A DNA stretch of 64,000 nucleotides from Oleiharenicola lentus (GTDB lineage Bacteria; Verrucomicrobiota; Verrucomicrobiia; Opitutales; Opitutaceae). A model generated the notes under the pieces. The model searched no databases. It saw only the letters and a program-made list of their open reading frames with translations, and was not told the DNA's origin. The stretch is from positions 2,049,693 to 2,113,692 of the forward strand of contig NZ_SDHX01000001.1 of NCBI RefSeq assembly GCF_004118375.1. The letters run 5' to 3'. Below are positions 1 to 23,436 of this stretch, one piece after another (position 1 is the first letter of the stretch; each line of letters opens with the position of its first letter). The position numbers were made by a program, and so were the translations under genes.

Positions 1-1356
1 GATTCGTTCATGCAGATTTGGGGTTCACCAAGCCTGATTGAGTTTTCCTGGTTCTGGATTGCGGGCTTTTCCATCATGATTGTCATCACCACCGCGGTTC
101 AGGCCAACCAGATGACGGCCTGCGGCTCGGCGAAAAGCGATTACGTCGCCCGCTACGGGTTTGTGGCCGGCGTGCTGCTCAAGCGCTACTCGAATGTCAT
201 GTGGGGGGTCGTCGCGCTGATGACCGTCGTGCTCTACGGAAATTCCATCTCCGACCCTGATTACGCGTGGGGGCTGGCGACCCGTGACTTGCTGGGCCCG
301 GTGAACCTGGGGCTGGTCGGCTTGATGATCGCCTGCCTGATCGCCGCATTGATGTCCTCGGTTTCGGCTTTCATGCTGACGGCGGCGGCGCTGATCACGA
401 ACAACCTTTACCGCCCGTTTCGGCCGCGGTGTTCCGAAGATCACTATGTTTGGGTCGGCAGGATTTTCAGCGCCGTGTACATGTTGGTTTCCGTTTACGT
501 CGCCGCGCAATCCAAGGGGCTGTTCGAACTCTTCAAGATGACGATGATGTTCAATAGTATCCTCGCGGCGGCCTTTTGGATGGGGATGCTCTGGCGTCGG
601 TCCAACCGCGCGGGTGCCTGGGCCTCGATGGTGTTCATGTTTGTCGCCACGGTCGTTCTGCCTTTCGGCCTGCCGTTGCTGCCGGGAATCCGCGATTCGG
701 CGTATCTGAGCAAGACCACGCAGGCCCTGACCGTCACCCGGACCTATACGGCCCGGGCCATGGATGTCAGTGAACGTGATCGCGCGATTGCCTCGTGGGA
801 TAAGGCCAAGGCCAGCGGTCAGGCGAAGGGCGAACGGCCCGCCATGCTGCGCGCCGGGGAAAAGTATGAGAAGAGCGTCCTGTTGCCCAAGAAGTCGGTT
901 TTCTGGAGCGATGGGCTTTCTGTCTCTGAAGGTAAGGTTTCCGGGCGAGGGTATCTGAAAGTCGAACTGGTGGTGTTAAACCGCCTCGGCTGGGACCTGG
1001 GCCGCAATTCGTATTCGCTGAACGAAACACTGACCTTCGTTTTTCGCATCATCCCGCCCTTCCTGATTCTCATGCTGGTCGCCTACCTGACGACGCCCGA
1101 GGCCAAGGAGCTGCTGGACCAGTTTTATGGCAAAATGCGCACTCCGGTGCTCGGGCACTCACCGGAGGAGGATGAACAGGCGATGGAGCTCACCCGGGCG
1201 GATCCGAACCGCTTCAATCACCTGAAGATGTTTCCAAATTCGAATTGGGAATTCCGTCGGTGGAACCGCGAGGACTGGACCGGCGTGCTCGGTTCAATCG
1301 GCGCCGCGGTGAGCGTGGTGCTCTTGTTGATGTTTGTGGTGAGCCTTGGCCGCTAG
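1..1356 (+). CDS. Sodium:solute symporter (SSS family), 5'-truncated by window edge
   Basis: The reading frame is open from base 1 and the first in-frame ATG is at 10, so the N-terminal half lies outside the window. Hydrophobic segments alternate with short loops. The stretch CLIAALMSSVSAFMLTAAAL at about residues 103-122 (from the ATG at 10) matches the conserved core helix of Na+/solute symporters, which import sugars, sialic acid, amino acids or similar solutes with Na+. Between later helices there is a hydrophilic insert of roughly 100 residues (about 230-335), followed by helices near 345-360 and a last helix at the C-terminus. The substrate cannot be read from the sequence; the neighbours suggest a sugar or sugar acid. 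The stop codon TAG forms the first three bases of a structured repeat. The family call is good, the substrate unknown. Confidence 0.85.
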   Translation, partial: DSFMQIWGSPSLIEFSWFWIAGFSIMIVITTAVQANQMTACGSAKSDYVARYGFVAGVLLKRYSNVMWGVVALMTVVLYGNSISDPDYAWGLATRDLLGPVNLGLVGLMIACLIAALMSSVSAFMLTAAALITNNLYRPFRPRCSEDHYVWVGRIFSAVYMLVSVYVAAQSKGLFELFKMTMMFNSILAAAFWMGMLWRRSNRAGAWASMVFMFVATVVLPFGLPLLPGIRDSAYLSKTTQALTVTRTYTARAMDVSERDRAIASWDKAKASGQAKGERPAMLRAGEKYEKSVLLPKKSVFWSDGLSVSEGKVSGRGYLKVELVVLNRLGWDLGRNSYSLNETLTFVFRIIPPFLILMLVAYLTTPEAKELLDQFYGKMRTPVLGHSPEEDEQAMELTRADPNRFNHLKMFPNSNWEFRRWNREDWTGVLGSIGAAVSVVLLLMFVVSLGR

Positions 1357-3629: not shown

Positions 3630-5924
3630 ATGAACCTATCCTCCCGTCGTTTCGTTCCCTTGCGTTTGCTATTCGCGTGCTTCCCGCTCGCTGTTTTCGC
3701 CCAAAAGGCGCCTGAGAAACCGGCCACCGCTGCGACCCAGACTGAAATGGAGGTCACGCTGCCAGCATTCACGGTTGGTGCCGACACGATTTCGCGGTAT
3801 CAGGCGGATGAGGCGACATCCGCAGCCCGCGTGCGCACGAATTTGTTTAGCTCGTCCTCCACGGTGAGCGTCCTGACCCCGGAGTTCCTGCGCGACACGG
3901 GCCCGGGTAAAGTCCTCGATGCGCTCAAGTTCGTTCCGGGTATCGCCGAGTCGACTCAACCGGTGGGCGGCGACCGCATGGCGGTGCGCGGCTTCCAGAC
4001 CGACGGGCAGATCATGGACGGCTTCGCGCGCACCGGCCCCTACAACCATCTCGAACCCTACCTGATTAACAGCGTTGAAATCGTCAAGGGACCCAACGCG
4101 ATTTTGAACCCATCAGGTCAGCCGGGTGGCACGGTCAACTACGTCAGCAAGAAGGCCGAGTTTGCCGATCGCGGCGAGGTGATCATGCAAGTTGGCCAGT
4201 ATGATGCCAACAAGGTGATGTTGGATATCAATCGCCAGGTGAACAAGAACGTCGCCATTCGGTTGGTGGGCGCCGCCATCCGGGATCGCGGATACTACGA
4301 CAATCCCAATCGCTCCTATAATTTCATGCCGAGCGCCACGTTTCGTTGGGGACGGACCCAGACGCTGACGCTCCAGGGAATTTTCCAGAAGACCAAACGC
4401 ACGTTTGTTGGCGGTGTGCCGATTTCTCCGCTGGCCAGTCCGACCAATGTCACGACCAAGCTCTGGCCGGGCATTACCGGGGACCGGAAGGTCTACGCGG
4501 ATGACAACAATCCCCGCAACGAACACGGCGAGCACTACCAGTTCCTCTATTCCGGTCGCATTAGCGATCGCCTCAGCGTCCGCGTCGCCGGTCACTTCCT
4601 GAATGACGGGCATGATGCGATTCAATATTCGAACAACTCGGCGAACGTTAACGGCCAGCCGGTGCTCACTGCGGCCTACATCAATCCGTTCACCGGCGTA
4701 TTCGATCCGACCCAATATTGGGGTGGGGCGCCGACCTTTACGGCCACACCGGCGCCGACACCGAGCAACATTTTCAATCGCAGCTCCTTCTCGGACTTCA
4801 CCACGACGAAGCAGTATGACTTTCAGAATGACTATGCCTATGAGCTGAAGGGCGAGAAATACTCCAGCACCACCACGGTCGGATTCTCTTGGCTGAAGAA
4901 CAAAGCCGACTACAAGAACGGAAACTTCAGCATTCCGGCGTACAACATCCTGGATCCGTTGGTTTACGTTGCGCCGGTGGACAATGGCGTTTCGAACGCC
5001 GGCAAGCGCAAGACCAGCGTCACCCAGATGTATCTGATGGAAAACCTTTCGATTCTATCTGATCGCGTGATCTTGACGGGCGGCTTGTCCAACAACGTCT
5101 ACCGGTCGCGTATTGCCAGCGTGACGAAGAACGGCGTCAAAGCCGTCAGCCAGACAGAGCTGTTTCCGTCCTACGGCGTGGTGGTCAAGGCGGCGGACGA
5201 TCTGGTGGTCTACTATGGCCACTCGGAGAGTGCCGCGATGAATCCGCCCGATGTCGGCTCGACCAATCCGCTGCTCCAAATTGGCCGGCAGTGGGAGGCG
5301 GGTGTGCGTTATCGGTTCCTCAAGAACAAGGCCACGGTCACGGCCGGTTACTTTGATGTCGCGCAGAGCAACGTTTCGGTGCCCAACCCCGCGAACCTCT
5401 TGTTTCCTGCTCCCGTTCCCCCGTTGCCCGGCCTCCTCTCGGATCGCACGGCCCGCGGGTGGGAGTATTCGCTGAACATGGAGTTGAATGACGAGATCTC
5501 GGTTATCGCCAATTACACGACCTTTCGCAATCGCGACGTAAACGGGTCGCCGATTCGTGGCACGGCGGAAAAGTCGGCGGCCGTCTGGGCCAAGTACACG
5601 GCGGCCAAGGACTCCAGTCTTGCCGGTTTTGGTGCGGGTTTGGGTATCTCCCACTCCGGTCAGCGGGCCGGTGATTCCCAGACCGGTTTCGCGCAGGCGA
5701 GTGTGATTGCCGGAAAGCCGGTCATCAAACAGCCGACGTTCTTCCTGCCCTCCTTTGTCCGTGTGGATCTGGCCCTGTCTTATCGCTTCAACAAGAGCTG
5801 GAGCACTTACGCCTTCGTCGAAAACATTCTGGACGAGACCTATCTCGCCGGATCGTTGAACCGGAACTCAGTAGTCGTGGGCATTCCGCGCAATATCAAG
5901 GCCAGCCTGACCTACTCCTTCTGA
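3630..5924 (+). CDS. TonB-dependent outer-membrane receptor (siderophore-receptor-like architecture)
   Basis: This is a 764-residue outer-membrane protein. A signal peptide (about residues 1-25, ending FPLAVFAQ) is followed by a TonB-box-like stretch, a plug domain (about 60-170; SVLTPEFLRDTG, then VEIVKGPNAIL and GGTVNYVSKK), and a beta barrel ending in aromatic SLTYSF as outer-membrane porins do. Receptors of this shape import iron chelates, vitamins or oligosaccharides using the TonB/ExbBD system. It is the first gene of a + strand run leading into Gfo/Idh, GH130 and GRE genes, so an oligosaccharide or glycoside ligand is inferred here rather than a siderophore. No clear Shine-Dalgarno precedes the ATG. 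Confidence 0.9.
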   Translation: MNLSSRRFVPLRLLFACFPLAVFAQKAPEKPATAATQTEMEVTLPAFTVGADTISRYQADEATSAARVRTNLFSSSSTVSVLTPEFLRDTGPGKVLDALKFVPGIAESTQPVGGDRMAVRGFQTDGQIMDGFARTGPYNHLEPYLINSVEIVKGPNAILNPSGQPGGTVNYVSKKAEFADRGEVIMQVGQYDANKVMLDINRQVNKNVAIRLVGAAIRDRGYYDNPNRSYNFMPSATFRWGRTQTLTLQGIFQKTKRTFVGGVPISPLASPTNVTTKLWPGITGDRKVYADDNNPRNEHGEHYQFLYSGRISDRLSVRVAGHFLNDGHDAIQYSNNSANVNGQPVLTAAYINPFTGVFDPTQYWGGAPTFTATPAPTPSNIFNRSSFSDFTTTKQYDFQNDYAYELKGEKYSSTTTVGFSWLKNKADYKNGNFSIPAYNILDPLVYVAPVDNGVSNAGKRKTSVTQMYLMENLSILSDRVILTGGLSNNVYRSRIASVTKNGVKAVSQTELFPSYGVVVKAADDLVVYYGHSESAAMNPPDVGSTNPLLQIGRQWEAGVRYRFLKNKATVTAGYFDVAQSNVSVPNPANLLFPAPVPPLPGLLSDRTARGWEYSLNMELNDEISVIANYTTFRNRDVNGSPIRGTAEKSAAVWAKYTAAKDSSLAGFGAGLGISHSGQRAGDSQTGFAQASVIAGKPVIKQPTFFLPSFVRVDLALSYRFNKSWSTYAFVENILDETYLAGSLNRNSVVVGIPRNIKASLTYSF

Positions 5925-5955: not shown

Positions 5956-7005
5956 ATGACCGCAAAGAAACTCAGGGTTGGGGTGGTTGGACTCGGCATC
6001 GGCCGGGGACAAGTTGAGTGCTTTCAACTGGACGAGCGGGTTACCCTCGCCGCGATCGGTGAGAACGCCCTCAAGCTCAGGCGCGACGGCATGGCAACCG
6101 ACGCGTTTGTGGCGACGACGGGTGCCAAGCTCTATCGCGACGCCGTGGAAATGATCAACTCTGGGGACATCGATGCGGTCAGCCTGGCCGTCACGCCCAA
6201 GCACCGCCTCGTGCTCCTTGAGGCGGCGGCCCGGAAGGGCCTGCCGGTCCTGATGGAAAAGCCCATGGCGGCGAATCTTGACGATGCGATCGCCATGGCG
6301 CGCATCGTCAAGAAGTCGGGCATCTTTTTCATGATGGAGTACCCGATGCGCTACATGCCGCCGATGGTTAAGCTGCGTGAGTTGATCGATACCGGGGTCG
6401 TGGGTCCGGTGCTCTCGCTGAATGCGGAATTGCAGACAGGTTGGAATCCGCCGGAAGGGCACTGGGCTTGGGATCCGGCGAATGGCAACGGACTGCTAAA
6501 CGAGGCCATCATCCATCTGTATGATTCGGCGAACTTCGTCTGTGGTAAGCCGGTGGAAGTGTACGCCGTGGGGCGCCACTATTTTGGCACGACTCAACTC
6601 GAAGATTCCGCCGTTCTTACGATCAGGTATGAAAATGGCTCGGTGGCGGTCTTGAATGGCGGGGGTCTCGGCACCAACGCCATGGCGGCCGAACCGATGT
6701 CGATGCATGTGTTTGGTCGAAACGGCGAGGCCATCGTCACCGGCCGGGATTGGCAGTACAAGGCGATCAATTTCGCCACCCGTACGGACAAGGCGCCCAG
6801 CTCCCAATCCTGGGAGACCCCGCCACGATTCCAGCTGATGCGTTATAACCTCCGTGAGTTTGTCTCCTGCATCCTTGAAAAGCGGGCCACTGCGTGTGGG
6901 TTGGAGGCCGCCTTGCAGGCCCAATGCGTGGTTGAGGCCATGAAGGAATCCATCCGAACCGGGCAAGTCGCGAAAGTGCGATCCGTGGCCGAGTTCATCT
7001 CGTAA
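5956..7005 (+). CDS. Gfo/Idh/MocA family oxidoreductase
   Basis: This 349-residue cytoplasmic protein has an N-terminal Rossmann fold (RVGVVGLGIGRG, residues about 6-17), the conserved LMEKPMA motif near residue 100 that places the catalytic lysine by the nicotinamide, and the C-terminal alpha/beta substrate domain. The family oxidises or reduces sugars, inositols and glycosides with NAD(P). It lies 31 bp after the TonB gene and 172 bp before GH130, so it probably belongs to the same unit. It may oxidise a sugar hydroxyl before or after phosphorolysis; this is inference from context. Confidence 0.88.
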   Translation: MTAKKLRVGVVGLGIGRGQVECFQLDERVTLAAIGENALKLRRDGMATDAFVATTGAKLYRDAVEMINSGDIDAVSLAVTPKHRLVLLEAAARKGLPVLMEKPMAANLDDAIAMARIVKKSGIFFMMEYPMRYMPPMVKLRELIDTGVVGPVLSLNAELQTGWNPPEGHWAWDPANGNGLLNEAIIHLYDSANFVCGKPVEVYAVGRHYFGTTQLEDSAVLTIRYENGSVAVLNGGGLGTNAMAAEPMSMHVFGRNGEAIVTGRDWQYKAINFATRTDKAPSSQSWETPPRFQLMRYNLREFVSCILEKRATACGLEAALQAQCVVEAMKESIRTGQVAKVRSVAEFIS

Positions 7006-7177: not shown

Positions 7178-8191
7178 ATGAAAACGAAAAAAGTAGCGGT
7201 CAATAAACGCATCTTGGTGGGGAAACCCCTGCCCAATATTCCTTGGGAGGAGCGCCCGGCTGATTCCAACGCCCTGGTCTGGCGGCATAGTGGGAATCCG
7301 ATCATCGACCTGCATCCGTTTGCGAACGCGCGCAGCGCCTACAACAGCTGTGCCATGCCGTGGGGGAGTGGCTTCATCGGAGTATTCCGCGTCGATTGGC
7401 TGTGCATGACGCCTTATCTGCACCTCGGCCGGAGCCCGGACGGATTGAAGTGGGAGCTCGATCCCACCCCGATTCGCTTCGAGGGGGCTGATCCGCTTCT
7501 GGGCAAACCGACCTTCGCCTATGATCCCCGCCTCTGCAAGATCGGGGACAAGTATTACGTGACCTGGTGCAACTCATATTACGGCTCGACGATCGGCCAG
7601 GCGTGGACCAAGGACTTCAAGACCTTTCATCAGCTCGAGAACGCGTTCCTGCCCTATAACCGCAACGGCGTCCTCTTTCCCAAGAAGATCGGGGGCAAGT
7701 ACGCGATGCTGAGCCGGCCGATGGGCCTGGGCATGGCGGTGAATTACGGCGATATCTTCTATAGCGATAGCCCGGACCTGACCTATTGGGGCAAGCACCG
7801 CATCGTGATGACCCGGGGACCGCGCAAATGGGAACGCGTGAAAATCGGCCCCGGCCCCGTGCCGATTGAAACGACTGAGGGTTGGTTGCTGCTCTATCAT
7901 GGTGTTTCCGACACCTGCGACAGCTTCGTCTATTGCATGGGCGCCGCGTTGCTCGATCTCGATGAACCGTGGAAGGTCCTCTATCGCTGCCAATTCCCGA
8001 TCATGTCACCCGAGGTGATCTACGAGACCGCCGGGTATGTCGGAAATGTCGTTTTCCCCACGGCGGCCCTGACCGACAGCGCCACCGGACGGATCGCCAT
8101 TTACTATGGCGCGGCCGACACCTGCACGGCGGTGGCCTACACGAAAGCCGACGAACTCGTCGCGTATGTAAAGAAGCACGCCACCAAGTAA
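7178..8191 (+). CDS. GH130-family beta-mannoside phosphorylase-like glycosidase
   Basis: This 337-residue cytoplasmic protein has a five-bladed beta-propeller pattern. Family marks are the N-terminal NPIIDLHPFANARSAYN, the catalytic Asp116 in FAYDPRL (usually EDPR in relatives), and KIGPGPVPIETTEGWLLLYHG at about 225-245, which forms the phosphate/active-site region. GH130 enzymes mostly cleave beta-mannosides by phosphorolysis, giving mannose 1-phosphate; some members hydrolyse instead. It has no signal peptide, so it acts on imported oligosaccharides. It sits between a Gfo/Idh gene and the GRE gene. Phosphorolysis versus hydrolysis cannot be decided from sequence alone. Confidence 0.85.
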   Translation: MKTKKVAVNKRILVGKPLPNIPWEERPADSNALVWRHSGNPIIDLHPFANARSAYNSCAMPWGSGFIGVFRVDWLCMTPYLHLGRSPDGLKWELDPTPIRFEGADPLLGKPTFAYDPRLCKIGDKYYVTWCNSYYGSTIGQAWTKDFKTFHQLENAFLPYNRNGVLFPKKIGGKYAMLSRPMGLGMAVNYGDIFYSDSPDLTYWGKHRIVMTRGPRKWERVKIGPGPVPIETTEGWLLLYHGVSDTCDSFVYCMGAALLDLDEPWKVLYRCQFPIMSPEVIYETAGYVGNVVFPTAALTDSATGRIAIYYGAADTCTAVAYTKADELVAYVKKHATK

Positions 8192-8257: not shown

Positions 8258-10519
8258 ATGACCAAGATTGACGATTTCTCCATGGAACTGGAGTTCACCC
8301 AAACCTACCGCAACAACATGCAATCCCATGTTGCCATCCGGGAGGCAAATTGCCTGCGGGTTCAATTTCCCGCGACCTTGGGTACGATTCAGGACGGCGA
8401 CCGGCTGGCCGGTCGCACCAACTGGGGCTGGGTTGGATTCTCCCCCCATAATGCCCCGCCGAACTGCGCCTATGGGTATTTCTGCCATGAGCAGAAAATC
8501 ATCGATGCCGTCGAGCGCGGAAACATCCCGATCGCCCAACGCGATGCGGTCATGGAGATGCTCCACTTCTGGAAGAAGGAAAATTCCAAGGCCAAGGTGG
8601 AGTCGGCCTTCACCCCGAAGATGCTGCCGGTGCTCTTCCGCGATGAGATCGTGCCGCTCCCTTATAATTTCAAGCCGATGATCGCCCAGCCGATCTATCG
8701 GATGGCGGGCGTCTTCGTCGACTACGAGAAGCTGGTTCGGCTGGGTCTGCCCGGACTCAAGCAGGAAGTGACGGAATACCGCGACAAGGCGAAAGCCTCA
8801 CAGGGCGACCATTTGCTGTTCGAGGGCCTGCTCATGGCCATCCAGGTGCTGGTCGACTCCTCCCTCCACTTCCAAAAGGAAGCCGAGGCCAAGGCGCAGG
8901 CCTGTTCGGATCCGGTCCGGGCCGAGCAGTTGAGAAAGTTGGCCGCGGTCCTGGGTTGGAATGCCGTGCGCAAGCCGGAGTCGTTCTACGAGGCCTTGCA
9001 GCTGTCATGGCTCTACACGCTCGTGAGCGGCTCGCTGGAGTTGGGCCGGATGGACGTCTATCTCGGCGATCTCTACGTGCACGACCTCGAGGCGGGTATC
9101 ATCACGGAACCGGAAGCGCTGTCCTTGATGCAGTCTCTCTGGAAGCTGATCAACCAGCTGTTCCGCGATGTCGATGGTCGGATCATCATCGGCGGCCGGG
9201 GCCGGCGCAACGAGGCCAATGCCGACCGGTTTGCCCTGCTGGCGCTCGAGACAACGCGGACCTACGGGCGGGCGATTCTGCCGCAGCTGACCCTGCGCTT
9301 CTATGAGGGCATGAATCCCCTCTTGATGGAACGCTCCCTTGAGCTGATCGGCGCCGGTCACACCTTCCCGCTGCTGTATAACGACGACGTTTTGGTTCCC
9401 GGCGTGGCCCATGCCTACGAAGTGACGGTCGAGGAGGCGGAGCAGTACATGCCCCTGGGCTGCGGGGAAATCGTTCTGGACCATGTTGGTTTTGGTACCC
9501 CGAGCGGCTCCCTCAACGTGTTGAAGGCCCTGGATGTAACCATGCGTGATGGCGTCGATCACATCATGAGCAAGCGCCTGGGCTTGCCGACCGGTGATTT
9601 GCGCGATTTCCGCACCTTCGAAGATTTCTTCGCCGCCTTCAAAAAGCAGCTGGCATTCTTCATCGAGATTCTGGCCGACCATGAGGAGCTGGAGTATGTC
9701 GAATCCGGCAAGCAGGCGTCTTATCTCTACCTCAGCCTGCTCTACGACGATTGCCTGCCGCGCGGAAAAGCCATCTTCTCCGGAGGCATCAAGTACCTGG
9801 GCGGCTCGCTCGAGTCCTTTGGCACGGTCAATGCCGCGGACAGCCTCACGGCGATCAAGAAACTGGTTTTCGATGACAAGGTGATCTCCGCCGAGCGGCT
9901 CATCCAGGCGTTGAACGCCAATTTCGTGGGCTTCGAGAAAGAGCGCCGCCTGATGATCGACTGCCCGAAATATGGCAACGACGATGCCTATGCGGATGAT
10001 ATCATGGTGGAATTGCACGAATTCATCTGCAACACCGTGCGCGACCAGCGAAAGCGCACGAACCTCGATTGGTACCTGAACGTGCTCATCAACAACAAGC
10101 AGAACACCATTCTGGGACGCTGGGTCGGAGCGACACCCGATGGACGCAAGGCGGGTGGACCCATGGCCAATGCGAACACCCCCGCGGGCGGAAACGACAA
10201 GAAGGGCATCACCGCCCTGATCAACTCGATCGTCAAACCGAGCCACGCGATCCACGCCGGGGCGGTCCAGAACATGCGGTTCGGGTATGATTTCTTCAGC
10301 AAGGACAAGGCCAAGCTGGAGGCGACCCTGACCACCTACTTCAAGAAGGGTGGGGCGCAGGCCATGATCACGGTGATCAACAAGGGGGATCTCGAACACG
10401 CGCTCGCCGAGCCCGAAAAGTACCAGGATCTCTTCGTCCGGATCGGCGGGTTTAGCGCCCGCTATATCGACCTGCCCAAGGATGTGCAGCTTGAGATCCT
10501 GAGCCGCAAGACCTACTGA
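8258..10519 (+). CDS. Glycyl radical enzyme, pyruvate formate-lyase-like, unknown substrate
   Basis: This 753-residue cytoplasmic protein has the PFL-like ten-stranded barrel fold. The radical glycine is Gly731 in RIGGFSARYIDL close to the C-terminus. The active-site cysteine is Cys402, followed by Gly403 and Glu404 (PLGCGEIVL). The C-x-E arrangement is that of eliminating and decarboxylating GREs such as diol dehydratases, where Glu acts as general base, and not the double Cys of true pyruvate formate-lyase. It is shorter than most diol dehydratases or choline lyase (about 790-850 residues). The activating enzyme is encoded 11 bp downstream. GRE proteins are destroyed by oxygen, so this step should be anaerobic. 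GH130 and two Gfo/Idh neighbours point to a sugar-derived substrate, possibly a polyol or deoxysugar. I cannot assign a characterised subgroup. Confidence 0.92.
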   Translation: MTKIDDFSMELEFTQTYRNNMQSHVAIREANCLRVQFPATLGTIQDGDRLAGRTNWGWVGFSPHNAPPNCAYGYFCHEQKIIDAVERGNIPIAQRDAVMEMLHFWKKENSKAKVESAFTPKMLPVLFRDEIVPLPYNFKPMIAQPIYRMAGVFVDYEKLVRLGLPGLKQEVTEYRDKAKASQGDHLLFEGLLMAIQVLVDSSLHFQKEAEAKAQACSDPVRAEQLRKLAAVLGWNAVRKPESFYEALQLSWLYTLVSGSLELGRMDVYLGDLYVHDLEAGIITEPEALSLMQSLWKLINQLFRDVDGRIIIGGRGRRNEANADRFALLALETTRTYGRAILPQLTLRFYEGMNPLLMERSLELIGAGHTFPLLYNDDVLVPGVAHAYEVTVEEAEQYMPLGCGEIVLDHVGFGTPSGSLNVLKALDVTMRDGVDHIMSKRLGLPTGDLRDFRTFEDFFAAFKKQLAFFIEILADHEELEYVESGKQASYLYLSLLYDDCLPRGKAIFSGGIKYLGGSLESFGTVNAADSLTAIKKLVFDDKVISAERLIQALNANFVGFEKERRLMIDCPKYGNDDAYADDIMVELHEFICNTVRDQRKRTNLDWYLNVLINNKQNTILGRWVGATPDGRKAGGPMANANTPAGGNDKKGITALINSIVKPSHAIHAGAVQNMRFGYDFFSKDKAKLEATLTTYFKKGGAQAMITVINKGDLEHALAEPEKYQDLFVRIGGFSARYIDLPKDVQLEILSRKTY

Positions 10520-10530
10520 GGCCCTCGCCT

Positions 10531-11439
10531 GTGAGCAAACGGGGCATCGTAACCGATATCCAACGGGCCTCCTTGCACGACGGCCCGGGAATCCGGACTA
10601 CGATCTTCCTCAAGGGGTGCCCGTTGCAATGCCTCTGGTGTCACAACCCAGAGGCGATTGCACCGCGACCGCAGCTCTTCTTTGCCGAAGAGCGCTGCGT
10701 GGCGTGCGGGTCCTGCGAGGCGGTCTGTCCCAACGGGGTCCATCACGTCGGGCCATCCGACCATGCGATCGAGTTCGGGCAATGTGCCACCTGCTCGCGG
10801 TGCGTCGATGAATGCAATGCGCGTGGCTTGAGGATCGTCGGCAAGGAGATGGACGCGGATGCCATCATGGCGGAGGTGTTGGCCGATGTGGAATTCTATC
10901 GCAATTCGGGCGGCGGGATGACGCTCAGCGGGGGGGAACCGCTCTACCAGCAGGCGTTCGCCCTGGAACTGTTGAATCGCGCCAAACAGATGAACATCCA
11001 CACCTGCGTCGAGACCTCGGGATTTGTCGCGGCGAAGAAGTTCGAGGCCGTGCTGCCCGCGGTGGATCTTTTGCTCTTCGATTACAAGGCCACGAAAGAT
11101 GAGGATCACCGTTCGTTTACCGGGGTTTCGAACGAGCTCATTCTGGCGAACCTCGACACCGCCTATCAGCGGGGGAATGATATCCTGCTCCGATGTCCGA
11201 TCGTGCCGGGGTTGAACGACACCGCGGAGCACTTCGCGGGAATCAGGGCGCTGGATGAAAAATACCCGCGCATACGCGGCATTGAGCTGATGCCGTATCA
11301 TGATTTCGGGAACAGCAAGCGGCCGAGTATCGGAATCGCCGAGGCATCTTCGCAGCTGCGCGTTCCGACCGCGACCGAACCGGGACAGTGGATCGAAGCC
11401 CTGAACGGGCTCGGTTGTCAGAAGGTGCGCATCGGATAA
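10531..11439 (+). CDS. Radical SAM glycyl-radical-enzyme activase with two ferredoxin-type clusters
   Basis: This 302-residue protein starts with GTG. The radical-SAM cluster motif CxxxCxxC is Cys30, Cys34 and Cys37. Two extra CxxCxxCxxxC sets follow, Cys56/59/62/66 and Cys85/88/91/95, a bacterial ferredoxin insert as in activases of diol-dehydratase-type GREs. MTLSGGEPLYQ is the SAM-binding GGE motif. It would abstract hydrogen from Gly731 of the GRE encoded directly upstream. The 11-bp spacing and the order GRE then activase are standard for these pairs. It ends 7 bp before the next Gfo/Idh gene, so all three are co-transcribed. Confidence 0.93.
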   Translation: MSKRGIVTDIQRASLHDGPGIRTTIFLKGCPLQCLWCHNPEAIAPRPQLFFAEERCVACGSCEAVCPNGVHHVGPSDHAIEFGQCATCSRCVDECNARGLRIVGKEMDADAIMAEVLADVEFYRNSGGGMTLSGGEPLYQQAFALELLNRAKQMNIHTCVETSGFVAAKKFEAVLPAVDLLLFDYKATKDEDHRSFTGVSNELILANLDTAYQRGNDILLRCPIVPGLNDTAEHFAGIRALDEKYPRIRGIELMPYHDFGNSKRPSIGIAEASSQLRVPTATEPGQWIEALNGLGCQKVRIG

Positions 11440-11446
11440 GGCCGGC

Positions 11447-12565
11447 ATGGAAGCCATTCGTCTTGGCGTCATCGGACTTGGCGTGATGGGCAAAGCCCAT
11501 GCGGCCAGTGTGGCGGCGGGGCATGTTCCCGGTCTGCAGCTGACCGCATTGGCCAAATGTGAATCGGCGGATTTCCTCGGGTCATCATCGGCCCGTTGTT
11601 TCCCATCGGCGGAGGCGCTGATTGAGTCCGCCGCGGTGGATGCCGTGCTGGTGGCCACACCTCATCCGACGCACAAAGATCTGTGCATTCGGGCCCTGCA
11701 AGCGGGGTTGCACGTCTTGGTGGAAAAGCCGGTGGGCATCCAGAAGAGTGATGTGGCGGCGATCTTGCAGGCGAGGCGCTCCGATTCCCAGGTGATGGCG
11801 GTCATGTTTCAGCAGAGAACCAATCCGATCTTCCAGCAGATCCGGGCCCTGGTGCAGGGTGGGGAACTCGGTGAAATTCGCCGTTTCAACTGGATTGTGA
11901 CCAATTGGTTTCGGCCGGCTGCGTACTATGCCACTTCCCCGTGGCGGGGTACCTGGGCGGGGGAGGGGGGCGGTCTGCTGTTGAATCAGTGCCCGCATCA
12001 ACTCGACCTCTGGCAATGGATCTTCGGCAGGCCGTGCCGAATCCGGGCCTTTTGTGGCTTTGGCCGCTATCACGACATCGAGGTTGAGGATGACGTAACC
12101 GCCTATTTGGAGTACGAGAACGGAACCTCCGGGGTGTTCATCGCCTCAACCGGCGAGTCACCTGGTACCAATCGCCTGGAAATTGTCGGGGAGCGCGGAC
12201 GGCTTGTTTACGAGAATGGCCAGTTGCAGCATCAGCAGAATGCGTCGGACATGACCGTCTTTTCCCGTCAGGCGTCGGCGCCTTTTGCCACTTTGCCTTG
12301 CGCGACGGTGCCACACCTGGCCGCTGATACGGGTGGTCGGCATGCGGATGTCATGGCCAACTTCGTGGCGGCGATTCGGCACGGGGGGCCATTGATCGCG
12401 GCGCTGCACGAGGGGGCCCATTCGCTCGAGTTGGCGAATGCGATGATCTTGTCGGCCTGGGAGAATCGCGCGGTCGATTTGCCGCTGGATGGCGAAAGAT
12501 ATGCCCGGGAGTTGGCGCAGCGGATCAAGAACTCGCGCGGCTTCAGATTGCCACGGGGTGGGTGA
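11447..12565 (+). CDS. Gfo/Idh/MocA family oxidoreductase
   Basis: This 372-residue cytoplasmic protein begins IRLGVIGLGVMGKAHA, a Rossmann NAD(P)-binding loop. LVEKPVG near residue 100 is the family's EKP motif, and GGGLLLNQCPHQLDLWQWIFG carries the conserved active-site Gly/His segment. It is the last gene of the + strand operon, starting 7 bp after the activase, so an oxidation or reduction linked to the GRE reaction is plausible. The stop codon at 12563-12565 is followed at once by the 156-bp repeat copy B, which may define the transcript end. The substrate is unknown. Confidence 0.88.
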   Translation: MEAIRLGVIGLGVMGKAHAASVAAGHVPGLQLTALAKCESADFLGSSSARCFPSAEALIESAAVDAVLVATPHPTHKDLCIRALQAGLHVLVEKPVGIQKSDVAAILQARRSDSQVMAVMFQQRTNPIFQQIRALVQGGELGEIRRFNWIVTNWFRPAAYYATSPWRGTWAGEGGGLLLNQCPHQLDLWQWIFGRPCRIRAFCGFGRYHDIEVEDDVTAYLEYENGTSGVFIASTGESPGTNRLEIVGERGRLVYENGQLQHQQNASDMTVFSRQASAPFATLPCATVPHLAADTGGRHADVMANFVAAIRHGGPLIAALHEGAHSLELANAMILSAWENRAVDLPLDGERYARELAQRIKNSRGFRLPRGG

Positions 12566-13540: not shown

Positions 13541-14512
13541 TCAACTACGGCCGAGTGTGGAGAGGAATCGAGTCCCGGCACAGAATCCACCCAGCAGTTT
13601 GATGCGATCAACTACCTTGGGCACATAGCGGGAGGCGACGAACGCCTGCAGTCCGTTGTCCATCGCCGTGTTTTTCCAATCCTTGTGCTTTTTGTCCAGC
13701 TGCGCGAGATGGGCGGAGAAGTATTCCTGGGCCGCTTGCGACCTGAGCAAGAGGGACTCGCTGGACCAGTTGACTTTGGACACCCCGGCCTGAACGGCGG
13801 CCTGCAAGCTGGCGACGGGCAACCCGGAAGAACCGTGCAAGGCTATGCCAATGGGGCGTCCCGCCAACGCGGTGGCCCGTTTCTGGTGCGCGCCAACCGC
13901 CTCGGCGCTGAAGGTCGGGTAGCCATCGGAACCGAGTCCGTGCTGCGTGCCTACGCCGGGGGCCCACCAAGCGAGGTAGCCCGGATTGTTTTTCTCGGCG
14001 GCACCGAAGAGCGTATCGCAATCAGTCAAAGGCGACACGCCGGCGTCCACGCCGGCCTCCATCTCGAGCGTCAGCGGAAGATTCCTCTGCGTCGCGCTGG
14101 CGCACAATTTGCCAATGGCCGCGATGTTCTCCGCCGGTGTCATTTCCGAGGAATCGAGCGAGAGGGAGGAGAAACGAGGCATCGCCGATTCCAGAATCGC
14201 GGTCGTTTCGGGCCCCTTGATATGGTCGGTATGCAGGACCACGGGCACCTGCTGAAAAGTGGCGTGGTTGGCCAGCACGTTGAGCTCGGCATGATACCGG
14301 GAGAGCCCGAGCAGGGCATCCCCGGCACCGAAGCTGCGCCCCTTCAACTGCCAAAGGCTGGTTTCGATCATGATGGGAGCATCGCATTGGCGGGCGGCCT
14401 CGAGCACGTCGTATACGGAGGCGGGGCTGTCAGCGTTGACTGCGAGCACCGCATATTTGTGTTGGAGCGCATCGGCGATGAGCTCCCGGGTTTGGGTGGG
14501 GGTGAGGAGCAT
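13541..14512 (-). CDS. Class II aldolase of the fructose-bisphosphate/tagatose-bisphosphate aldolase family
   Basis: This 323-residue cytoplasmic protein starts with YAVLAVNADSPAS, as in FbaA/GatY/KbaY relatives. Zinc and active-site motifs are HTDH at 94-97, LEMEAGVD, HGSSG near 223, and KVNWSSE near 245, which replaces the usual KVNIDT phosphate-binding stretch. The family splits ketose (bis)phosphates into dihydroxyacetone phosphate and an aldehyde; IolJ does the same in inositol breakdown. It is the last gene of the seven-gene minus-strand operon that starts at 21698, 19 bp after the aldehyde dehydrogenase. The altered KVNWSSE motif suggests a substrate other than fructose 1,6-bisphosphate. 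Confidence 0.82.
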   Translation of the reverse strand: MLLTPTQTRELIADALQHKYAVLAVNADSPASVYDVLEAARQCDAPIMIETSLWQLKGRSFGAGDALLGLSRYHAELNVLANHATFQQVPVVLHTDHIKGPETTAILESAMPRFSSLSLDSSEMTPAENIAAIGKLCASATQRNLPLTLEMEAGVDAGVSPLTDCDTLFGAAEKNNPGYLAWWAPGVGTQHGLGSDGYPTFSAEAVGAHQKRATALAGRPIGIALHGSSGLPVASLQAAVQAGVSKVNWSSESLLLRSQAAQEYFSAHLAQLDKKHKDWKNTAMDNGLQAFVASRYVPKVVDRIKLLGGFCAGTRFLSTLGRS

Positions 14513-14531
14513 GATAGGTGGCGCCTAAACT

Positions 14532-15992
14532 CTAGATAGCAGTTTTGATGTGCTTGATTTTGAGATATTCGAACACCGCTTTGCGGGACAGCTCGACCCC
14601 GTAGCCGCTGTCCTTCCAGCCTGCGTAGGGACCGTAATTGGTGTTCACGGCGCCATGGTTCACGCAGACGGTGCCAGCTTCCAAAGCTTCCGAGATCTTC
14701 ACCGTGGCGGTGTGGTCCTTGGTAAAGAGGTAGGCGGCGAGGCCATAGGAAGTGTCGTTGGCCAGCGCGATGGCCTGCTCGTTGGTGTCGAATGCTTGGA
14801 AGGGAATCACCGGGCCAAAAGTCTCCTCTCGCATGACAAGCATGTCGGCGGAGCAACCGGTGAGGATGGTGGGCGGGAAATAGAGGCCTGCGGCGAACGC
14901 CGCGCCGGTGAGACGCTGGCCGCCGGTAACCAGTTTGGCGCCCTTCTGCACGGCGTCCTTCACATGAGCCAGAGAGGTCTTGGGGCCGCTGGCGGTGGCC
15001 ATGGGCCCGAGGTCTACCTTCGGATCGGTAATGCCGTCACCAATCGTCATCTTTTCCCCGATGGCCTTCAATTTCGCGACGAGCGCGTCGTGAATGGAGC
15101 GATGGGCATAGACGCGGTTCACGGAGCTGCAGGATTGACCGCAGTTCCTGAATCCCTTGTAGGCGATGATCTTCGCGGCGAGGTCGAGATCCGCATCGGA
15201 GCAGACAATGGCCGGACAGTGGCCGCCCAGTTCGAGGGACACCTTTTTGAGGAAAGGGGAGACGACCTGCATGATCCGTTTACCCACTTCGCTGGACCCG
15301 GTCATGGCGATCTTCTTGACCAACGGATGCTGCATGAGCGCCTCACCCAGCGAGGCGCCGGGGCCGTTGAGCACATTGATGACACCGGCCGGAATGCCGC
15401 CCTCGACGAGGGTCTGGCAGAAGGCGGTCGGCGACATCGGCGTGACCGTCGTGGGCTTGACGACCACCGTGCATCCTGTGGCCAGGGCCGGGCCGAGTTT
15501 CCAACTCAGCAGGGAGACCGGGTAGTTCCAAGGTGTGATGAGGGCGCAGACGCCCACCGGCTGATAAATGATGGAAGAACGGTAGGCGCGATCCTCGGTG
15601 GGGCTGATGACGCCCTCGATGCGGACGCCCTCGGCGGCGTAGTAGTCCAGGGTGTCGCAGGAGCCGCCGATCTCCGAAACCGACTGGGCGAGCGGTTTAC
15701 CCTGCTCCAGCGCCATGAGGCGGCCGATGTGGTCGGCGCGCGTGCGCACATAGCCCGTTGCCTTGGTGATGATCTTCTGGCGCTCGTAGGCGGTAAGTGC
15801 GGCCCAAACGGGAAACGCGCTTTGCGCGGAGCCGACGGCCCGGTCGACATCCGCTTGACCGGCCTTGGCAATCTGGCCAATCGGCTCACCGGTGGCCGGA
15901 GACTTGATGGTGAAGGTCGCGCCATCAGCAGCGGGGCACGGTCGGCCGTCGATGAGGTTGCGGATTTCGTGGATGGTTTCAGTAAGTGGCAT
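14532..15992 (-). CDS. NAD(P)-dependent aldehyde dehydrogenase
   Basis: This 486-residue cytoplasmic enzyme has a complete active site: Asn156 in PWNYP, Glu254 in LELGG, and Cys288 in GQSCSS. TGSSEVGKRI is the NAD-binding helix. It resembles the succinate-semialdehyde/lactaldehyde dehydrogenase group, which oxidises small aldehydes to acids. It is encoded between the MDR dehydrogenase and the aldolase, consistent with oxidising an aldehyde made by the aldolase or by alcohol oxidation. The substrate is not determinable here. Confidence 0.88.
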   Translation of the reverse strand: MPLTETIHEIRNLIDGRPCPAADGATFTIKSPATGEPIGQIAKAGQADVDRAVGSAQSAFPVWAALTAYERQKIITKATGYVRTRADHIGRLMALEQGKPLAQSVSEIGGSCDTLDYYAAEGVRIEGVISPTEDRAYRSSIIYQPVGVCALITPWNYPVSLLSWKLGPALATGCTVVVKPTTVTPMSPTAFCQTLVEGGIPAGVINVLNGPGASLGEALMQHPLVKKIAMTGSSEVGKRIMQVVSPFLKKVSLELGGHCPAIVCSDADLDLAAKIIAYKGFRNCGQSCSSVNRVYAHRSIHDALVAKLKAIGEKMTIGDGITDPKVDLGPMATASGPKTSLAHVKDAVQKGAKLVTGGQRLTGAAFAAGLYFPPTILTGCSADMLVMREETFGPVIPFQAFDTNEQAIALANDTSYGLAAYLFTKDHTATVKISEALEAGTVCVNHGAVNTNYGPYAGWKDSGYGVELSRKAVFEYLKIKHIKTAI

Positions 15993-16010
15993 GGCGAAAA
16001 AGGAATCGGA

Positions 16011-17057
16011 TTACAGTTGCGGATGAATGCAGACCTTGAGGGCTTCACCGGACTCCATCAGGCCGAAGGCCTCTTCGATCCGGGCAAGCGGCAGGGTGTG
16101 GGTGACGATCTTGCCGGCGGGGAAGCGGCCGCTGTTGATCAGCGCGAAGGCCGCTTGGAAATCGCTCTTCTTCTCCGAATAGGAGCCGCTGATCTCGAGT
16201 TCCTTGTAGTGGATGGTGTTCACGTTGAGCGTGGCGGTCGGAGCCGACTTGGGCAGGCCGGCAAAGAAGTTCACGCGTCCGGCCTTGCCGGCGATTTCGA
16301 GGGCGTCGTTCTGGGCGGCGGCCGCACTGACCGCGACGATGACGACATCCGGGCCGAAGCCGCCCGTGAGGCGGGCCACTTCCTCGCGGTGGGAGCCGTC
16401 AGGCTTGACCAGCACGGTGGCGTCGAGGTCGAACGCGCGGGCCATTTCGAGCCGGCGCGGATTGTTGTCGAGGACGATGACCTGTTGCGCGCCCTGCAGG
16501 CGGGCAAGCGTGGCATGCATGATGCCAATGGGACCGGCACCGATGACGGCGACCGTGTCCTTGAGGCCGATGCCGAGACGGCTGTGGGCGTTCATGCAAC
16601 AGCCCAGCGGCTCCGCCACGCTGAGGTGATCGGAGGGGAGATCGTTGGTGGCCTTGAAGAGATTGCCCTGACGGACGGCGAGGGCGGGGACCTTCATGAA
16701 CGGGGCGAAGGCCCCGTCATGATGATAGGAGATGGTCGTGCGGTTCGCCGTCAGGTTGGCGCGTCCCGCCTCGACATAGCGGTCCGTGCCACTGACGAGC
16801 ACGATGTACATGACAACCCGATCACCGACCTTGATGGGGGAGTCGGGGGCTCGTGATTCGACCACGCGGCCGCAGAACTCATGGCCGAGGATCCGCGGCG
16901 GCTTGATTTTGGCGTCACCATGGCGATAGGTGCGCAGGTCGGTGCCGCAAACACTGCATGAATCGATGGCCAGCAGCATTTCCCCATCGTCGAGGGTCGG
17001 GTCGGCGACGGTTTGGACGGGCAGTTGTTCTTTTCCGAGATAGACAGCAGCTTTCAT
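16011..17057 (-). CDS. Zinc-type medium-chain alcohol/polyol dehydrogenase lacking structural zinc cysteines
   Basis: This 348-residue MDR enzyme has catalytic zinc ligands Cys37 (CSVCGTD) and His59-Glu60 (LGHE), plus VAEPLGCCMNAH. The NAD fold has VIGAGPIGIMHA at about 170-181. It resembles sorbitol or threonine dehydrogenases, which oxidise a secondary alcohol of a polyol. An odd feature is the structural-zinc lobe at about 85-105 (VLVSGTDRYVEAGRANLT), which keeps the family's spacing but has none of the four usual cysteines, so the structural zinc should be absent, as in some sorbitol dehydrogenases. It is co-transcribed with two aldehyde dehydrogenases. Confidence 0.85.
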   Translation of the reverse strand: MKAAVYLGKEQLPVQTVADPTLDDGEMLLAIDSCSVCGTDLRTYRHGDAKIKPPRILGHEFCGRVVESRAPDSPIKVGDRVVMYIVLVSGTDRYVEAGRANLTANRTTISYHHDGAFAPFMKVPALAVRQGNLFKATNDLPSDHLSVAEPLGCCMNAHSRLGIGLKDTVAVIGAGPIGIMHATLARLQGAQQVIVLDNNPRRLEMARAFDLDATVLVKPDGSHREEVARLTGGFGPDVVIVAVSAAAAQNDALEIAGKAGRVNFFAGLPKSAPTATLNVNTIHYKELEISGSYSEKKSDFQAAFALINSGRFPAGKIVTHTLPLARIEEAFGLMESGEALKVCIHPQL

Positions 17058-17070
17058 GGGAAGGTTGGGT

Positions 17071-18552
17071 TCAGCTCATCCAGTTCTTGGCGGAGGCGGC
17101 GGACCATTTTTTCGTGACCTTCCGGGTCTTGGTCCAGAAAGCCAGGCCATCGCGGCCGGTGATGTCGCCGATGCCGAAACGGGATTCGTTCCAGCCGCCG
17201 AAGGCGAAGGGTTCGCGGGGCACTGGCACGCCGATGTTGATGCCGACCATGCCGGCGTTGGCCCGGGCCTCGAAGTAGGCGGCGGTGCCGCCATCGCTGG
17301 TGTAGATGGCGGCGGCGTTGCCAAAGGGGCTGGCGTTCTCGATCGCGAGCGCCTCGTCCAGGGCCTTCACCCGCAGGATGGAGAGCACCGGTCCGAAGAT
17401 CTCGTCGCAGGCCCATTCCTGGCCGGGCACCACGCCGTCAATGATGGTGGGGCCGACGTAGTTGCCGCCCTCCTTGCCCGCCACCTTGGCGCCGCGGCCG
17501 TCGAGCAGGACCTTGGTGGAGCCGGCGGCAGCGCGGTCGATGTAGCCGACGATGCGGTCGCGCGCCTTCGGATTGATGATGGCGCCCATGTCCTGGCCCA
17601 AGCGGATGCCGCGAGCCACATTGATGATGGCTTCGATGATATGGTCGCAGTTGCCGACGGCGAGCAGCACGCTGGCGGCCATACAGCGCTGGCCGGCGCA
17701 GCCCATGGCGGAACTGACGACGTTGCGCGCCGTGACCTCCGGATCGGCATCCGGCATGACGACGAGGTGGTTTTTGGCGCCACCGAGGGCCAGCATGCGC
17801 TTGCCGGCGGCGGTGCCGCGGGCGTAGACCGTGCGGGCCACCGGGGTGGAGCCGACAAAGGCGGCGGCGGCGATACCGCGGTGATCGAGCAGCGCCTCGA
17901 CGGTCTCGCGACCGCCCTGCAGCACGTTAAAAACACCGGCAGGCAGTCCGGCCTGGCTCAGCAACTCGGCCAGCCGCAAGGGAGTGAACGGAACCTGATC
18001 AGACGGCTTCAGGATGAAGCTGTTTCCCGTCGCGATCGCCAAGGGAAACATCCAAAAGGGGACCATGGCCGGGAAATTGAACGGAGTGATGCCGGCGGTG
18101 ACGCCGAGCGGGTAGCTGCGCGTGTAGCAGTCGACCCCGCTGCTCACTTCCAGGAGTTCGCCGGTGATGAGCTGCGGCAGGGAAGTGGCATACTCGACGA
18201 CCTCAAGGCCCTTGCGAATGCCGGCCTCGGACTCGGCCGGGGTCTTGCCGTTCTCGGCTGTGACGAGTTGCGAGAGTTCGGCGATGTTGTCTTCGACGAG
18301 CTGCTTGAAGCGGAAGAGCGGTTGCACCCGTTCCTTCACCGGGGTGGCGCGCCACTCAAGGAAGGCCTTTTGAGCCGCCGCCACGGTTTGGTCCAACTCG
18401 GCGGTCGAGGCGGGATGGAGAAGACCCAGAGGCTTGCCATCCACCGGGGAATTCAAGGTTGTGCCGGCCGCGCCGGAGCTAGGCAGGCGTTGACCGCCAA
18501 TGTAGTGATCGACCGCCTTGAGCGTCGGGGCCGTGGAAGCTGATGGATTCAT
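17071..18552 (-). CDS. mmsA: CoA-acylating methylmalonate-semialdehyde dehydrogenase (MmsA/IolA type)
   Basis: This 493-residue cytoplasmic enzyme has the typical ITPFNFPAMVPFWM block at about 155-168 and catalytic Cys290 in GQRCMA. The general-base Glu of ordinary aldehyde dehydrogenases is replaced in LALGGAKNH, the feature that marks this CoA-dependent branch. The C-terminal REPFAFGGWNESRFG also fits. The family converts (methyl)malonate semialdehyde plus CoA and NAD to acetyl- or propionyl-CoA, CO2 and NADH, in valine or inositol breakdown. Placement beside a Gfo/Idh protein, a TIM barrel, a kinase and a class II aldolase favours an inositol-like sugar route here. Confidence 0.88.
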   Translation of the reverse strand: MNPSASTAPTLKAVDHYIGGQRLPSSGAAGTTLNSPVDGKPLGLLHPASTAELDQTVAAAQKAFLEWRATPVKERVQPLFRFKQLVEDNIAELSQLVTAENGKTPAESEAGIRKGLEVVEYATSLPQLITGELLEVSSGVDCYTRSYPLGVTAGITPFNFPAMVPFWMFPLAIATGNSFILKPSDQVPFTPLRLAELLSQAGLPAGVFNVLQGGRETVEALLDHRGIAAAAFVGSTPVARTVYARGTAAGKRMLALGGAKNHLVVMPDADPEVTARNVVSSAMGCAGQRCMAASVLLAVGNCDHIIEAIINVARGIRLGQDMGAIINPKARDRIVGYIDRAAAGSTKVLLDGRGAKVAGKEGGNYVGPTIIDGVVPGQEWACDEIFGPVLSILRVKALDEALAIENASPFGNAAAIYTSDGGTAAYFEARANAGMVGINIGVPVPREPFAFGGWNESRFGIGDITGRDGLAFWTKTRKVTKKWSAASAKNWMS

Positions 18553-18589
18553 AGATTTGGGATCAAAAGGTTGATTGCGGGAGAAGTTA

Positions 18590-20484: not shown

Positions 20485-20510
20485 GGGGTAGGGATGGGGT
20501 TAACAGTTTT

Positions 20511-21698: not shown

Positions 21699-22062
21699 AT
21701 CGGTTTCAGCATCAGGTTGGGTGAGACGAACCGGGCGAAAACGCGCTTAATATAGCCTTTGTTGCCGCGAGCAGCCATGTCTGTGGCGGCAAAGGCATGC
21801 TTATTTGCGCACGATTGAGACGACCGGAGCAGGCCTGGAGTTCGGGGGAGCAGGTGGCCTCTTGCCCCTGTCCGTACTCAGGTAAGGATTGCTGCTGCAC
21901 GCCAAAAGCTGGCGCAGCAATATATATCTGGGTTGCGGACAAGAGCCTGCCGGCACTGTAGCCAGCCTGCGCGAGGGCGGCACAGCTCCAAAATGCGAAA
22001 CCTCGTGGCAGAGGCGCCGATCGAGGTGGCTCGACCGCGATTGGATCAGAGACTTTGCTGGT
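21699..22062. other. Intergenic region (364 bp) with one stem-loop
   Basis: No convincing gene is visible on either strand. The region lies downstream of the exported Gfo/Idh gene and upstream of the cytoplasmic one, both on the minus strand, so it should hold a terminator and a promoter. The only clear structure is the stem-loop at 21888-21921. I found no copy of the CATCCC palindrome or of the 156-bp repeat here. Confidence 0.6.
21888..21921 (-). terminator. Candidate stem-loop terminator after the exported Gfo/Idh gene
   Basis: The arms ATTGCTGC and GCAGCAAT are perfectly complementary, and an inner GCCA/TGGC pair extends the stem around a short loop. On the minus strand the structure lies about 140 bp beyond the stop at 22063. 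There is no strong T-run after it, so intrinsic termination is uncertain. Confidence 0.4.
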
Positions 22063-23394: not shown

Positions 23395-23436
23395 GGTCAG
23401 GATATGGGTTGATGGCGTTGGGAGAAATGAATCATT

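Follow-up and report, generated by a model that had tools for sequence, protein, structure and literature searches.

What does a glycyl radical enzyme (GRE) with a Gly-Cys-Gly-Glu (GCGE) active site do beside a mannoside phosphorylase-like enzyme? The question is raised by a stretch of 64,000 nucleotides from Oleiharenicola lentus (Verrucomicrobiota; assembly GCF_004118375.1, contig NZ_SDHX01000001.1, positions 2,049,693 to 2,113,692), referred to here as the window, in which such a GRE is followed by its activase and preceded by an enzyme of glycoside hydrolase family 130 (GH130). The answer proposed here is that the active GRE would be a radical eliminase (a C-O lyase) acting on a small unphosphorylated sugar-derived compound fed to it by GH130 phosphorolysis of a beta-mannoside, a reading to which we give an even chance. 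A preliminary description of the locus had suggested new sugar-derived radical chemistry. As judged from alignments and a tree, the GRE and its relatives (here called C-G-E proteins, for Cys-Gly-Glu) are a new subfamily of a known superfamily, so the idea of a separate group has stood, whereas radical chemistry on sugars already has precedent in the GREs YbiW and PflD. The pairing of an altered mannose-releasing enzyme with a GRE suggests an undescribed anaerobic breakdown of a sugar-derived compound.

The identities of the genes are established, and those of the radical enzyme and its activase are placed as follows.

8258-10519, plus strand: GCGE-type GRE, ATG start, 753 amino acids (Pfam, alignments, model and tree)
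9458-9469, plus strand: the G401-C402-G403-E404 codons, for a Cys predicted to relay the radical, a Glu predicted to be the general acid/base and, separating the two, the Gly specific to the family (invariant in a 58-row alignment)
10448-10450, plus strand: the Gly731 codon, where the glycyl radical is predicted to form (invariant in the 58-row alignment; Pfam Gly_radical)
10531-11439, plus strand: radical S-adenosylmethionine GRE activase, GTG start, 302 amino acids, with motifs for two ferredoxin-type clusters (TIGR02494, Fer4)

Catalytic residues, predicted fold and activase

The open reading frame, the alignments and Pfam bear out the intact Gly731 loop, the Cys402-Gly-Glu404 site and the length of 753 residues that had been read from the DNA. 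The GCGE motif occupies residues 401-404 (Cys402, Glu404) and the motif RIGGF contains Gly731; these catalytic positions are established, as G401, C402, G403, E404 and G731 are invariant in 58 of the 58 rows of alignment A2. The protein matches the PFL-like family of Pfam with 357 bits and Gly_radical (PF01228) with 59 bits (cut-off 22). An AlphaFold2 model (pLDDT 93.1, pTM 0.92) predicts a GRE fold for the whole chain, and the 50 Foldseek matches listed for it are all GREs (19-25% identity, TM-score by query 0.83-0.87), with glycerol dehydratase first (TM-score 0.87) and propanediol dehydratases also in the top ranks (0.86-0.87). VIA-align gave Z scores of 35-42 to 34 GRE entries, the top ones closely bunched, and neither ranking singles out a subgroup among the many GREs that it bunches together. 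The glycyl loop, active-site Cys, predicted barrel fold and nearby activase that mark the GRE superfamily are all present, as is the Glu two residues past the Cys (Glu404) that marks the eliminase type. The quality of the model, the GRE fold and the joint recurrence of these genes in other phyla indicate that the locus is more than a product of chance.

The activase, to which the first reading gave two ferredoxin clusters, follows the GRE as described. Read by eye, it has a CX3CX2C motif and two ferredoxin motifs of the form CX2CX2CX3C; it scores 323 bits against NCBIfam TIGR02494 (cut-off 174), and Fer4 matches fall around residues 50-97. Among the relatives described below, an activase lies in the fetched flank of 73 of 80, in 67 of these at no more than 300 bp from the GRE.

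The fold raises the possibility that an ordinary known activity (glycerol or diol dehydratase, choline lyase or pyruvate formate-lyase, PFL) is concealed in a divergent sequence, since Foldseek and profile searches put glycerol dehydratase first, with choline lyase and propanediol dehydratase high. We regard this as extremely improbable. None of the NCBIfam equivalog cut-offs was reached by the window GRE, the shortfall being hundreds of bits: 271 bits against 1100 for HypD (NF043068), 258 and 241 bits against 1000 for the sulfopropanediol dehydratases HpsG (NF048011) and HpfG (NF048009), 237 bits against 1050 for the choline trimethylamine-lyase CutC (TIGR04394), and 83 bits against 994 for PFL (TIGR01255). 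The adjacent Cys-Cys pair of PflB (PMC12338860) is absent from the window GRE, which has C402-G403 in its place. A search of the host genome for PF00936, the microcompartment shell family, gave no match (the control was positive in 2 of 14), in agreement with the earlier statement that shell genes are lacking. The pocket of glycerol dehydratase, in which we take His164, His281 and Asp447 (in what we assume to be that enzyme's own numbering) to have diol-binding roles, is likewise not kept: in the alignment H164 corresponds to G151, D447 to P415 and Y640 to I611, and the loop with H281/S282 is deleted.

A family of C-G-E proteins

A scan of reference genomes yielded 279 GRE relatives, of which 80 were kept; one of these is a copy of the window enzyme, and the others include near-duplicates. 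All 80, from many phyla and including named isolates, have the C-G-E motif together with a GG[FWL] glycyl loop, which rules out the notion that GCGE is a quirk of sequencing or annotation. Within the Verrucomicrobiota, 94 of 387 genomes have a GRE match at 1e-30. From these matches, the window and 29 fetched loci were aligned; ten of the 30 rows are C-G-E (nine GCGE and one DCGE), and in the remaining 20 the place between the Cys and the Glu is taken by V, I or T. In a tree of 51 rows, the 31 C-G-E rows fall on one side of a branch supported at 100/100, with a stem of 1.19 changes per column, and YbiW, PflD, CutC, glycerol dehydratase, propanediol dehydratase and HypD fall on the other. The subfamily grouping is thus established with respect to these six characterised GREs, which are the references of the tree (IslA, HpsG, decarboxylase, succinate-synthase and PFL rows being outside it), and the earlier remark that GCGE is unlike the known GCVE-type enzymes holds good against them. 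Clustering inside a characterised subgroup with its substrate residues conserved, named beforehand as the outcome that would speak against a separate enzyme, was not observed in the tree or the alignment.

The likenesses to known enzymes are therefore those of the superfamily. The B12-independent glycerol dehydratase and the 1,2-propanediol dehydratase (PDB 1r8w, 5i2g, 9rco) have in common with the window GRE the fold, the C-x-E motif, the glycyl loop and a place among the top Foldseek matches; they differ from it in sequence (24-25% identity), in having GCVE and the His164/His281/Asp447 pocket, and in their side of the tree. CutC and HypD share the eliminase fold and C-x-E (best VIA-align Z about 41), and differ in having GCVE, in an identity of about 23-26%, in their opposite position in the tree and in the cut-offs missed. 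The isethionate sulfite-lyase IslA was met in the structure matches and has no row in the tree. On the other hand, the C-G-E proteins have marks of their own, namely R308, an N612-N613 pair, HAGA or a similar sequence at 666-669 and, in most cases, SARF or SARY past the radical Gly. Both R308 and R316 are invariant in the family alignments A1 and A2; R308 is absent from the reference rows, and an Arg at the R316 position is also found in the CutC row and in two uncharacterised rows. From these alignments we infer a remodelled pocket around an unchanged catalytic core.

A second subgroup of C-G-E proteins in the Verrucomicrobiota (L005, L006, L008, L010 and L011, fetched loci being denoted by L numbers) is supported at 100/100 in the tree. 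Its members are without R148, have a single Asn of the N612-N613 pair (its placement varies between two alignments) and a KHIE-like loop, and possibly act on another substrate. A member on plasmid pPP4 of Persicobacter is 40.6% identical to the window GRE and belongs to the same C-G-E group by the tree; its label at NCBI, 'pyruvate formate lyase family protein', is generic and carries no function. No relative of the window GRE was found in viral contigs. A separate observation concerns PhyH-type dioxygenases, which use Fe/2-oxoglutarate and oxygen: they are encoded near or next to the GRE at L084 (13160-13906) and L114 (14143-14898), and cluster c15 has them in nine loci, as identified by Pfam in L069 and L084 and by annotation on the Persicobacter plasmid. 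The GRE and these neighbours are perhaps anoxic and oxic versions of one step.

A search of the literature, covering titles and the starts of abstracts and including the newest GRE papers, brought up, among the papers listed, none on a GCGE family (most subscription papers lay outside its scope), and a term search of the main text of PMC11528403 did not find 'GCGE'. In the human gut, functions are unknown for many of the GREs that are abundant there (PMC11574389).

A GH130 partner with a rewritten acceptor site

The genes that would supply the GRE lie upstream of it.

10-1356, plus strand: SSS-type symporter, 448 amino acids (PF00474), probably cut by the window start
7178-8191, plus strand: GH130 mannoside phosphorylase-like enzyme, 337 amino acids (PF04041, 201 bits)
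7718-7753, plus strand: rewritten GH130 acceptor-site segment PMGLGMAVNYGD, residues 181-192 (alignment with solved relatives, which have PSDxGHT-PFGD)

By eye, the GH130 protein has no obvious signal peptide; it shares 53-54% identity with UhgbMP, RaMP2 and TM1225. It resembles them in having the catalytic Asp and two Arg, D116, R162 and R180 being aligned with D104, R150 and R168 of UhgbMP, where we take R150 and R168 to form the phosphate site and H174 to belong to the acceptor site. It departs from them in the SDxGHT acceptor segment: the stretch that bears H174, PSDNGHT-PFGD, is replaced by PMGLGMAVNYGD, with PMGLGM at residues 181-186. In general terms the motif RPSDxxHT has become RPMGx(G/A)(M/L)A, one residue is inserted, and CNG has become CDS. 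D104 is the key aspartate of UhgbMP (PMC4599007).

This variant GH130 is closely tied to the GRE in its occurrence. It is present in all 14 genomes of what is here called the close branch, that is, the window and L033-L045, whose GREs are at least 74% identical (13 of the variants were read together and that of L042 in a separate alignment). In 10 of the 14 it lies directly upstream of the GRE; two genes intervene in L039 and L040, and in L041 and L043 it is found on another contig, the GRE contigs beginning near or at the GRE. Conversely, RPSDxxHT is kept in 42 of 42 control GH130s of about half identity, which were fetched loci making up a subset of the matches (28 from a Bacteroidota order sample, L148-L175, and 14 from Verrucomicrobiota, L184-L197). 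Outside these controls, 13 distant GH130s (L135-L147, 29-38% identity) have neither RPSDxxHT nor the variant pattern. In the order sample of 344 genomes, GH130s above 57% identity occur in two genomes, the same two that alone have a 78% GRE, and two further genomes with GREs of 39-41% have no GH130 at 1e-80; this sample was centred on one known GRE and GH130 genome and is better evidence of absence elsewhere than of independent linkage. Among the 387 Verrucomicrobiota genomes, the best GH130 beyond the host genome reaches 57%. The genome of L046 (GRE 64%) contains only an ordinary-type GH130 in a search at 1e-20.

The SSS symporter belongs to the same linkage, which for the GRE, GH130 and SSS genes is established. 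Its orthologs are 65-84% identical in L033, L034, L036 and L045 and 43% identical in L042; blastp found further ones in L035, L037-L040 and L044, and in Bacteroidota they lie directly upstream of the GH130 gene. The claim that GH130 is co-encoded with the GRE is supported, GH130 being a true partner within the close branch.

One might suppose that the GRE and GH130 are neighbours that were transferred together and have no joint pathway. The block has probably moved between phyla, and beyond the close branch GH130 is found in the fetched flanks only at L085, where it is of the ordinary type. Against this, the variant acceptor motif was met only in genomes with a close-branch GRE, GH130s of about half identity in the L046 and L033 genomes are ordinary, and the L041 and L043 genomes hold the variant even with GRE contigs that begin at or close to the GRE, all of which makes mere co-transfer highly doubtful. 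An acceptor segment altered exactly where the GRE is present also amounts to a built-in clue to the substrate of the GRE.

Proposed reaction

By analogy with characterised GREs, the activase would abstract a hydrogen from Gly731, the radical would pass from Gly731 to Cys402, and the Cys402 thiyl radical would take a hydrogen from a substrate C-H adjoining a hydroxyl, with Glu404 assisting the departure of the neighbouring C-O bond. The product radical would then recover a hydrogen from Cys402, the net result being a redox-neutral elimination, either a dehydration or the cleavage of an ether or ring C-O bond. For the steps before this, we infer the transport, the activity and direction of the GH130 and the class of substrate: in the window branch the SSS symporter would import a beta-mannoside, and the co-evolved GH130 would phosphorolyse it to mannose-1-phosphate and an unusual acceptor, which is the likely supply step in this branch. 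The substrate of the GRE would be the released acceptor, or the glycoside. A wider proposal is that C-G-E proteins make up a widespread, undescribed family of sugar GREs that carry out radical C-O cleavage of unphosphorylated saccharide-derived substrates, possibly of the glycoside itself, and that in the window branch they form, with the remodelled GH130, an undescribed anaerobic route for a beta-mannoside whose aglycone is unusual; this we put forward tentatively, at somewhat less than even probability.

Several points weigh against an eliminase fed by GH130. The pairing with GH130 may be particular to one branch, as the glycosidases of distant members differ and many loci have just an AraC gene, the GRE and the activase. 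The 14 close-branch genomes are related, and the block has probably moved as a unit, hence they are not independent. At seven of the 80 relative loci no activase was found by tblastn. Anaerobic use of the GRE in this host is an assumption. The host genome (4.71 Mb in two contigs, estimated 100% complete), in which the window GRE is the sole PFL-like match, has four COX1-type matches and no match to NrdD, placing an oxygen-sensitive enzyme in an apparently respiring host. Finally, the conserved Arg308 could, from its distribution in the alignments, mean an acidic substrate and not a neutral polyol.

The last point leads to a lyase of sugar acids or uronates, in which Arg308, and perhaps Arg316, would bind a carboxylate and the GH130 would act on a mannosyl-glucuronate. 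The invariance of both residues in the family and the absence of R308 from the reference rows fit such an enzyme, a GH130 phosphorylase of Man-GlcA exists (PMC8950772), and some members have SMP-30/gluconolactonase-like, zinc-dependent alcohol dehydrogenase (Zn-ADH) and Gfo/Idh genes nearby. R316, shared with CutC and the two uncharacterised rows, is no special mark, and none of the genes recognised beside the window GRE is of a uronate pathway, so that this lyase is quite unlikely.

Neighbouring genes and what they say of the substrate

The plus-strand order in the window is SSS symporter, aldo-keto reductase, TonB receptor, Gfo/Idh 1, GH130, GRE, activase and Gfo/Idh 2, with gaps, from the coordinates, of 66 bp between GH130 and GRE, 11 bp between GRE and activase and 7 bp between activase and Gfo/Idh 2. 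The remaining features of this block are given here.

3630-5924, plus strand: TonB-dependent receptor, upstream of GH130 and GRE (profile match; ortholog in the Lacunisphaera metagenome-assembled genome L033, 59%)
5956-7005, plus strand: Gfo/Idh/MocA oxidoreductase 1 (profile match; L033 ortholog 85%)
11447-12565, plus strand: Gfo/Idh/MocA oxidoreductase 2 (profile match; L033 match in two separated pieces)

The nearest relatives of the window are L032, a Verrucomicrobiota metagenome-assembled genome whose GRE is 100% identical and whose locus nearly copies the window, and L033, with a GRE of 89%, in which the gene order is kept. The match to Gfo/Idh 2 in L033 (13217-17208) is broken in two, with about 2.9 kb between the parts. 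This resembles the effect of an insertion and suggests a gene that is dispensable there. Leaving the near-copy L032 aside, both window Gfo/Idh genes are kept only in L033 among the seven loci searched; none was found in L034, L042 and L045, L036 has a 26% match to a different window Gfo/Idh, and L046 has a distant one of 27%. The two Gfo/Idh genes are thus co-encoded with the window GRE, as first described, but are not consistent partners elsewhere, and Gfo/Idh was rejected as the defining partner. Neighbour clusters of eight and three place Gfo/Idh genes near some distant GRE members, a loose association that leaves a role for them possible. An inositol pathway found no support either, as the Gfo/Idh proteins score 101 and 118 bits as inositol dehydrogenases, far short of the cut-off of 355.

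The Gfo/Idh family includes anhydrofructose reductases, and its genes stand on both sides of the window GRE block. These genes bear on the possibility that the GRE is an unphosphorylated counterpart of YbiW and PflD, opening the ring of free 1,5-anhydromannitol or 1,5-anhydroglucitol to give a 1-deoxy-ketose, with Gfo/Idh supplying the anhydro sugar from 1,5-anhydrofructose. YbiW and PflD, which open 1,5-anhydro sugar phosphates (PMC12441222; PDB titles 8id7 and 8id0), are the closest functional precedent and resemble the C-G-E reading in being GREs that act on a sugar derivative; they are unlike it in having GCIE or GCVE, phosphorylated substrates and another pocket signature, and in lying across the 100/100 branch. 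Gfo/Idh is also an inconsistent partner, and neither a phosphotransferase system nor a fructose-6-phosphate aldolase was met among the representative C-G-E neighbours scanned, unlike E. coli, where the former lies beside pflD and fsaA beside ybiW. The opening of a free anhydro sugar is accordingly considered unlikely.

Returning to the reading of a GRE supplied by glycoside breakdown, the wider neighbourhoods, in which families were identified from representative proteins and not for each neighbour, differ between lineages. The close-branch loci of Bacteroidota also encode sulfatases, GH92 alpha-mannosidases, DUF5010-CBM35 proteins and phosphoesterases, some of the last bearing secretion tails, a set which suggests that their target is a phosphorylated or sulfated mannose-rich glycan. 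In L034, L035, L039, L040 and L043, a metallophosphoesterase, a protein of the endonuclease/exonuclease/phosphatase family or an alkaline phosphatase is encoded near the GH130 or the GRE. Across the family, 31 of 80 loci have a divergent AraC-cluster gene (the cluster being named from one scanned member) no more than two genes upstream of the GRE; in many Spirochaetota and some Bacillota members the genes that follow encode a solute-binding protein, two unscanned permease-like proteins and a GH42-like enzyme. The idea that the GH42-like enzymes are GH164-type mannosidases was not borne out: their best solved matches are beta-galactosidases, whereas 6t5o, which we take to be a GH164 enzyme, is a weak match for one of two. 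Other glycosidases near members belong to GH2, GH5, GH92, GH94-like, GH106 and GH127. At L047 (5150-7894), in Ruminiclostridium termitidis with a GRE of 58%, a GH94-like protein (85 bits) comes after the activase, and GH94 is another family that includes phosphorylases.

In the distant members scanned, the adjacent glycosidase is thus usually other than GH130 (GH42-like, GH2, GH94-like and others), with a sugar solute-binding protein and AraC regulators also nearby, and because it varies, mannose itself need not be the substrate of the GRE. The oxidised or reduced mannose derivative first suggested as substrate is a conjecture; in the GH130, the change lies at the acceptor site and the catalytic Asp is kept. 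The GRE stays constant while the glycosidases vary, which indicates that its substrate is probably a moiety that several glycosides share. The same variation (GH130, GH42-like, GH92, GH2, GH5, GH94-like, GH106, GH127) has been weighed in favour of a GRE that cleaves glycosides itself, by abstraction of the C2 hydrogen and radical loss of C1-OR to give a 1,5-anhydro-2-ketose and the free aglycone, alongside the many glycosidases. To our knowledge no GRE acts on an intact glycoside, and there would be no need for the phosphorylase that consistently accompanies the GRE in the close branch; such direct cleavage is decidedly improbable.

Beyond the block, the minus strand carries a second run of sugar catabolism at 13541-26205, with a class II aldolase-like protein, two aldehyde dehydrogenases, a Zn-ADH, a ROK protein, two AP_endonuc_2 proteins, two Gfo/Idh proteins and a sulfatase. 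Past this sulfatase, a long run of large open reading frames (about 400-1050 amino acids) extends over 26263-58634 on the minus strand.

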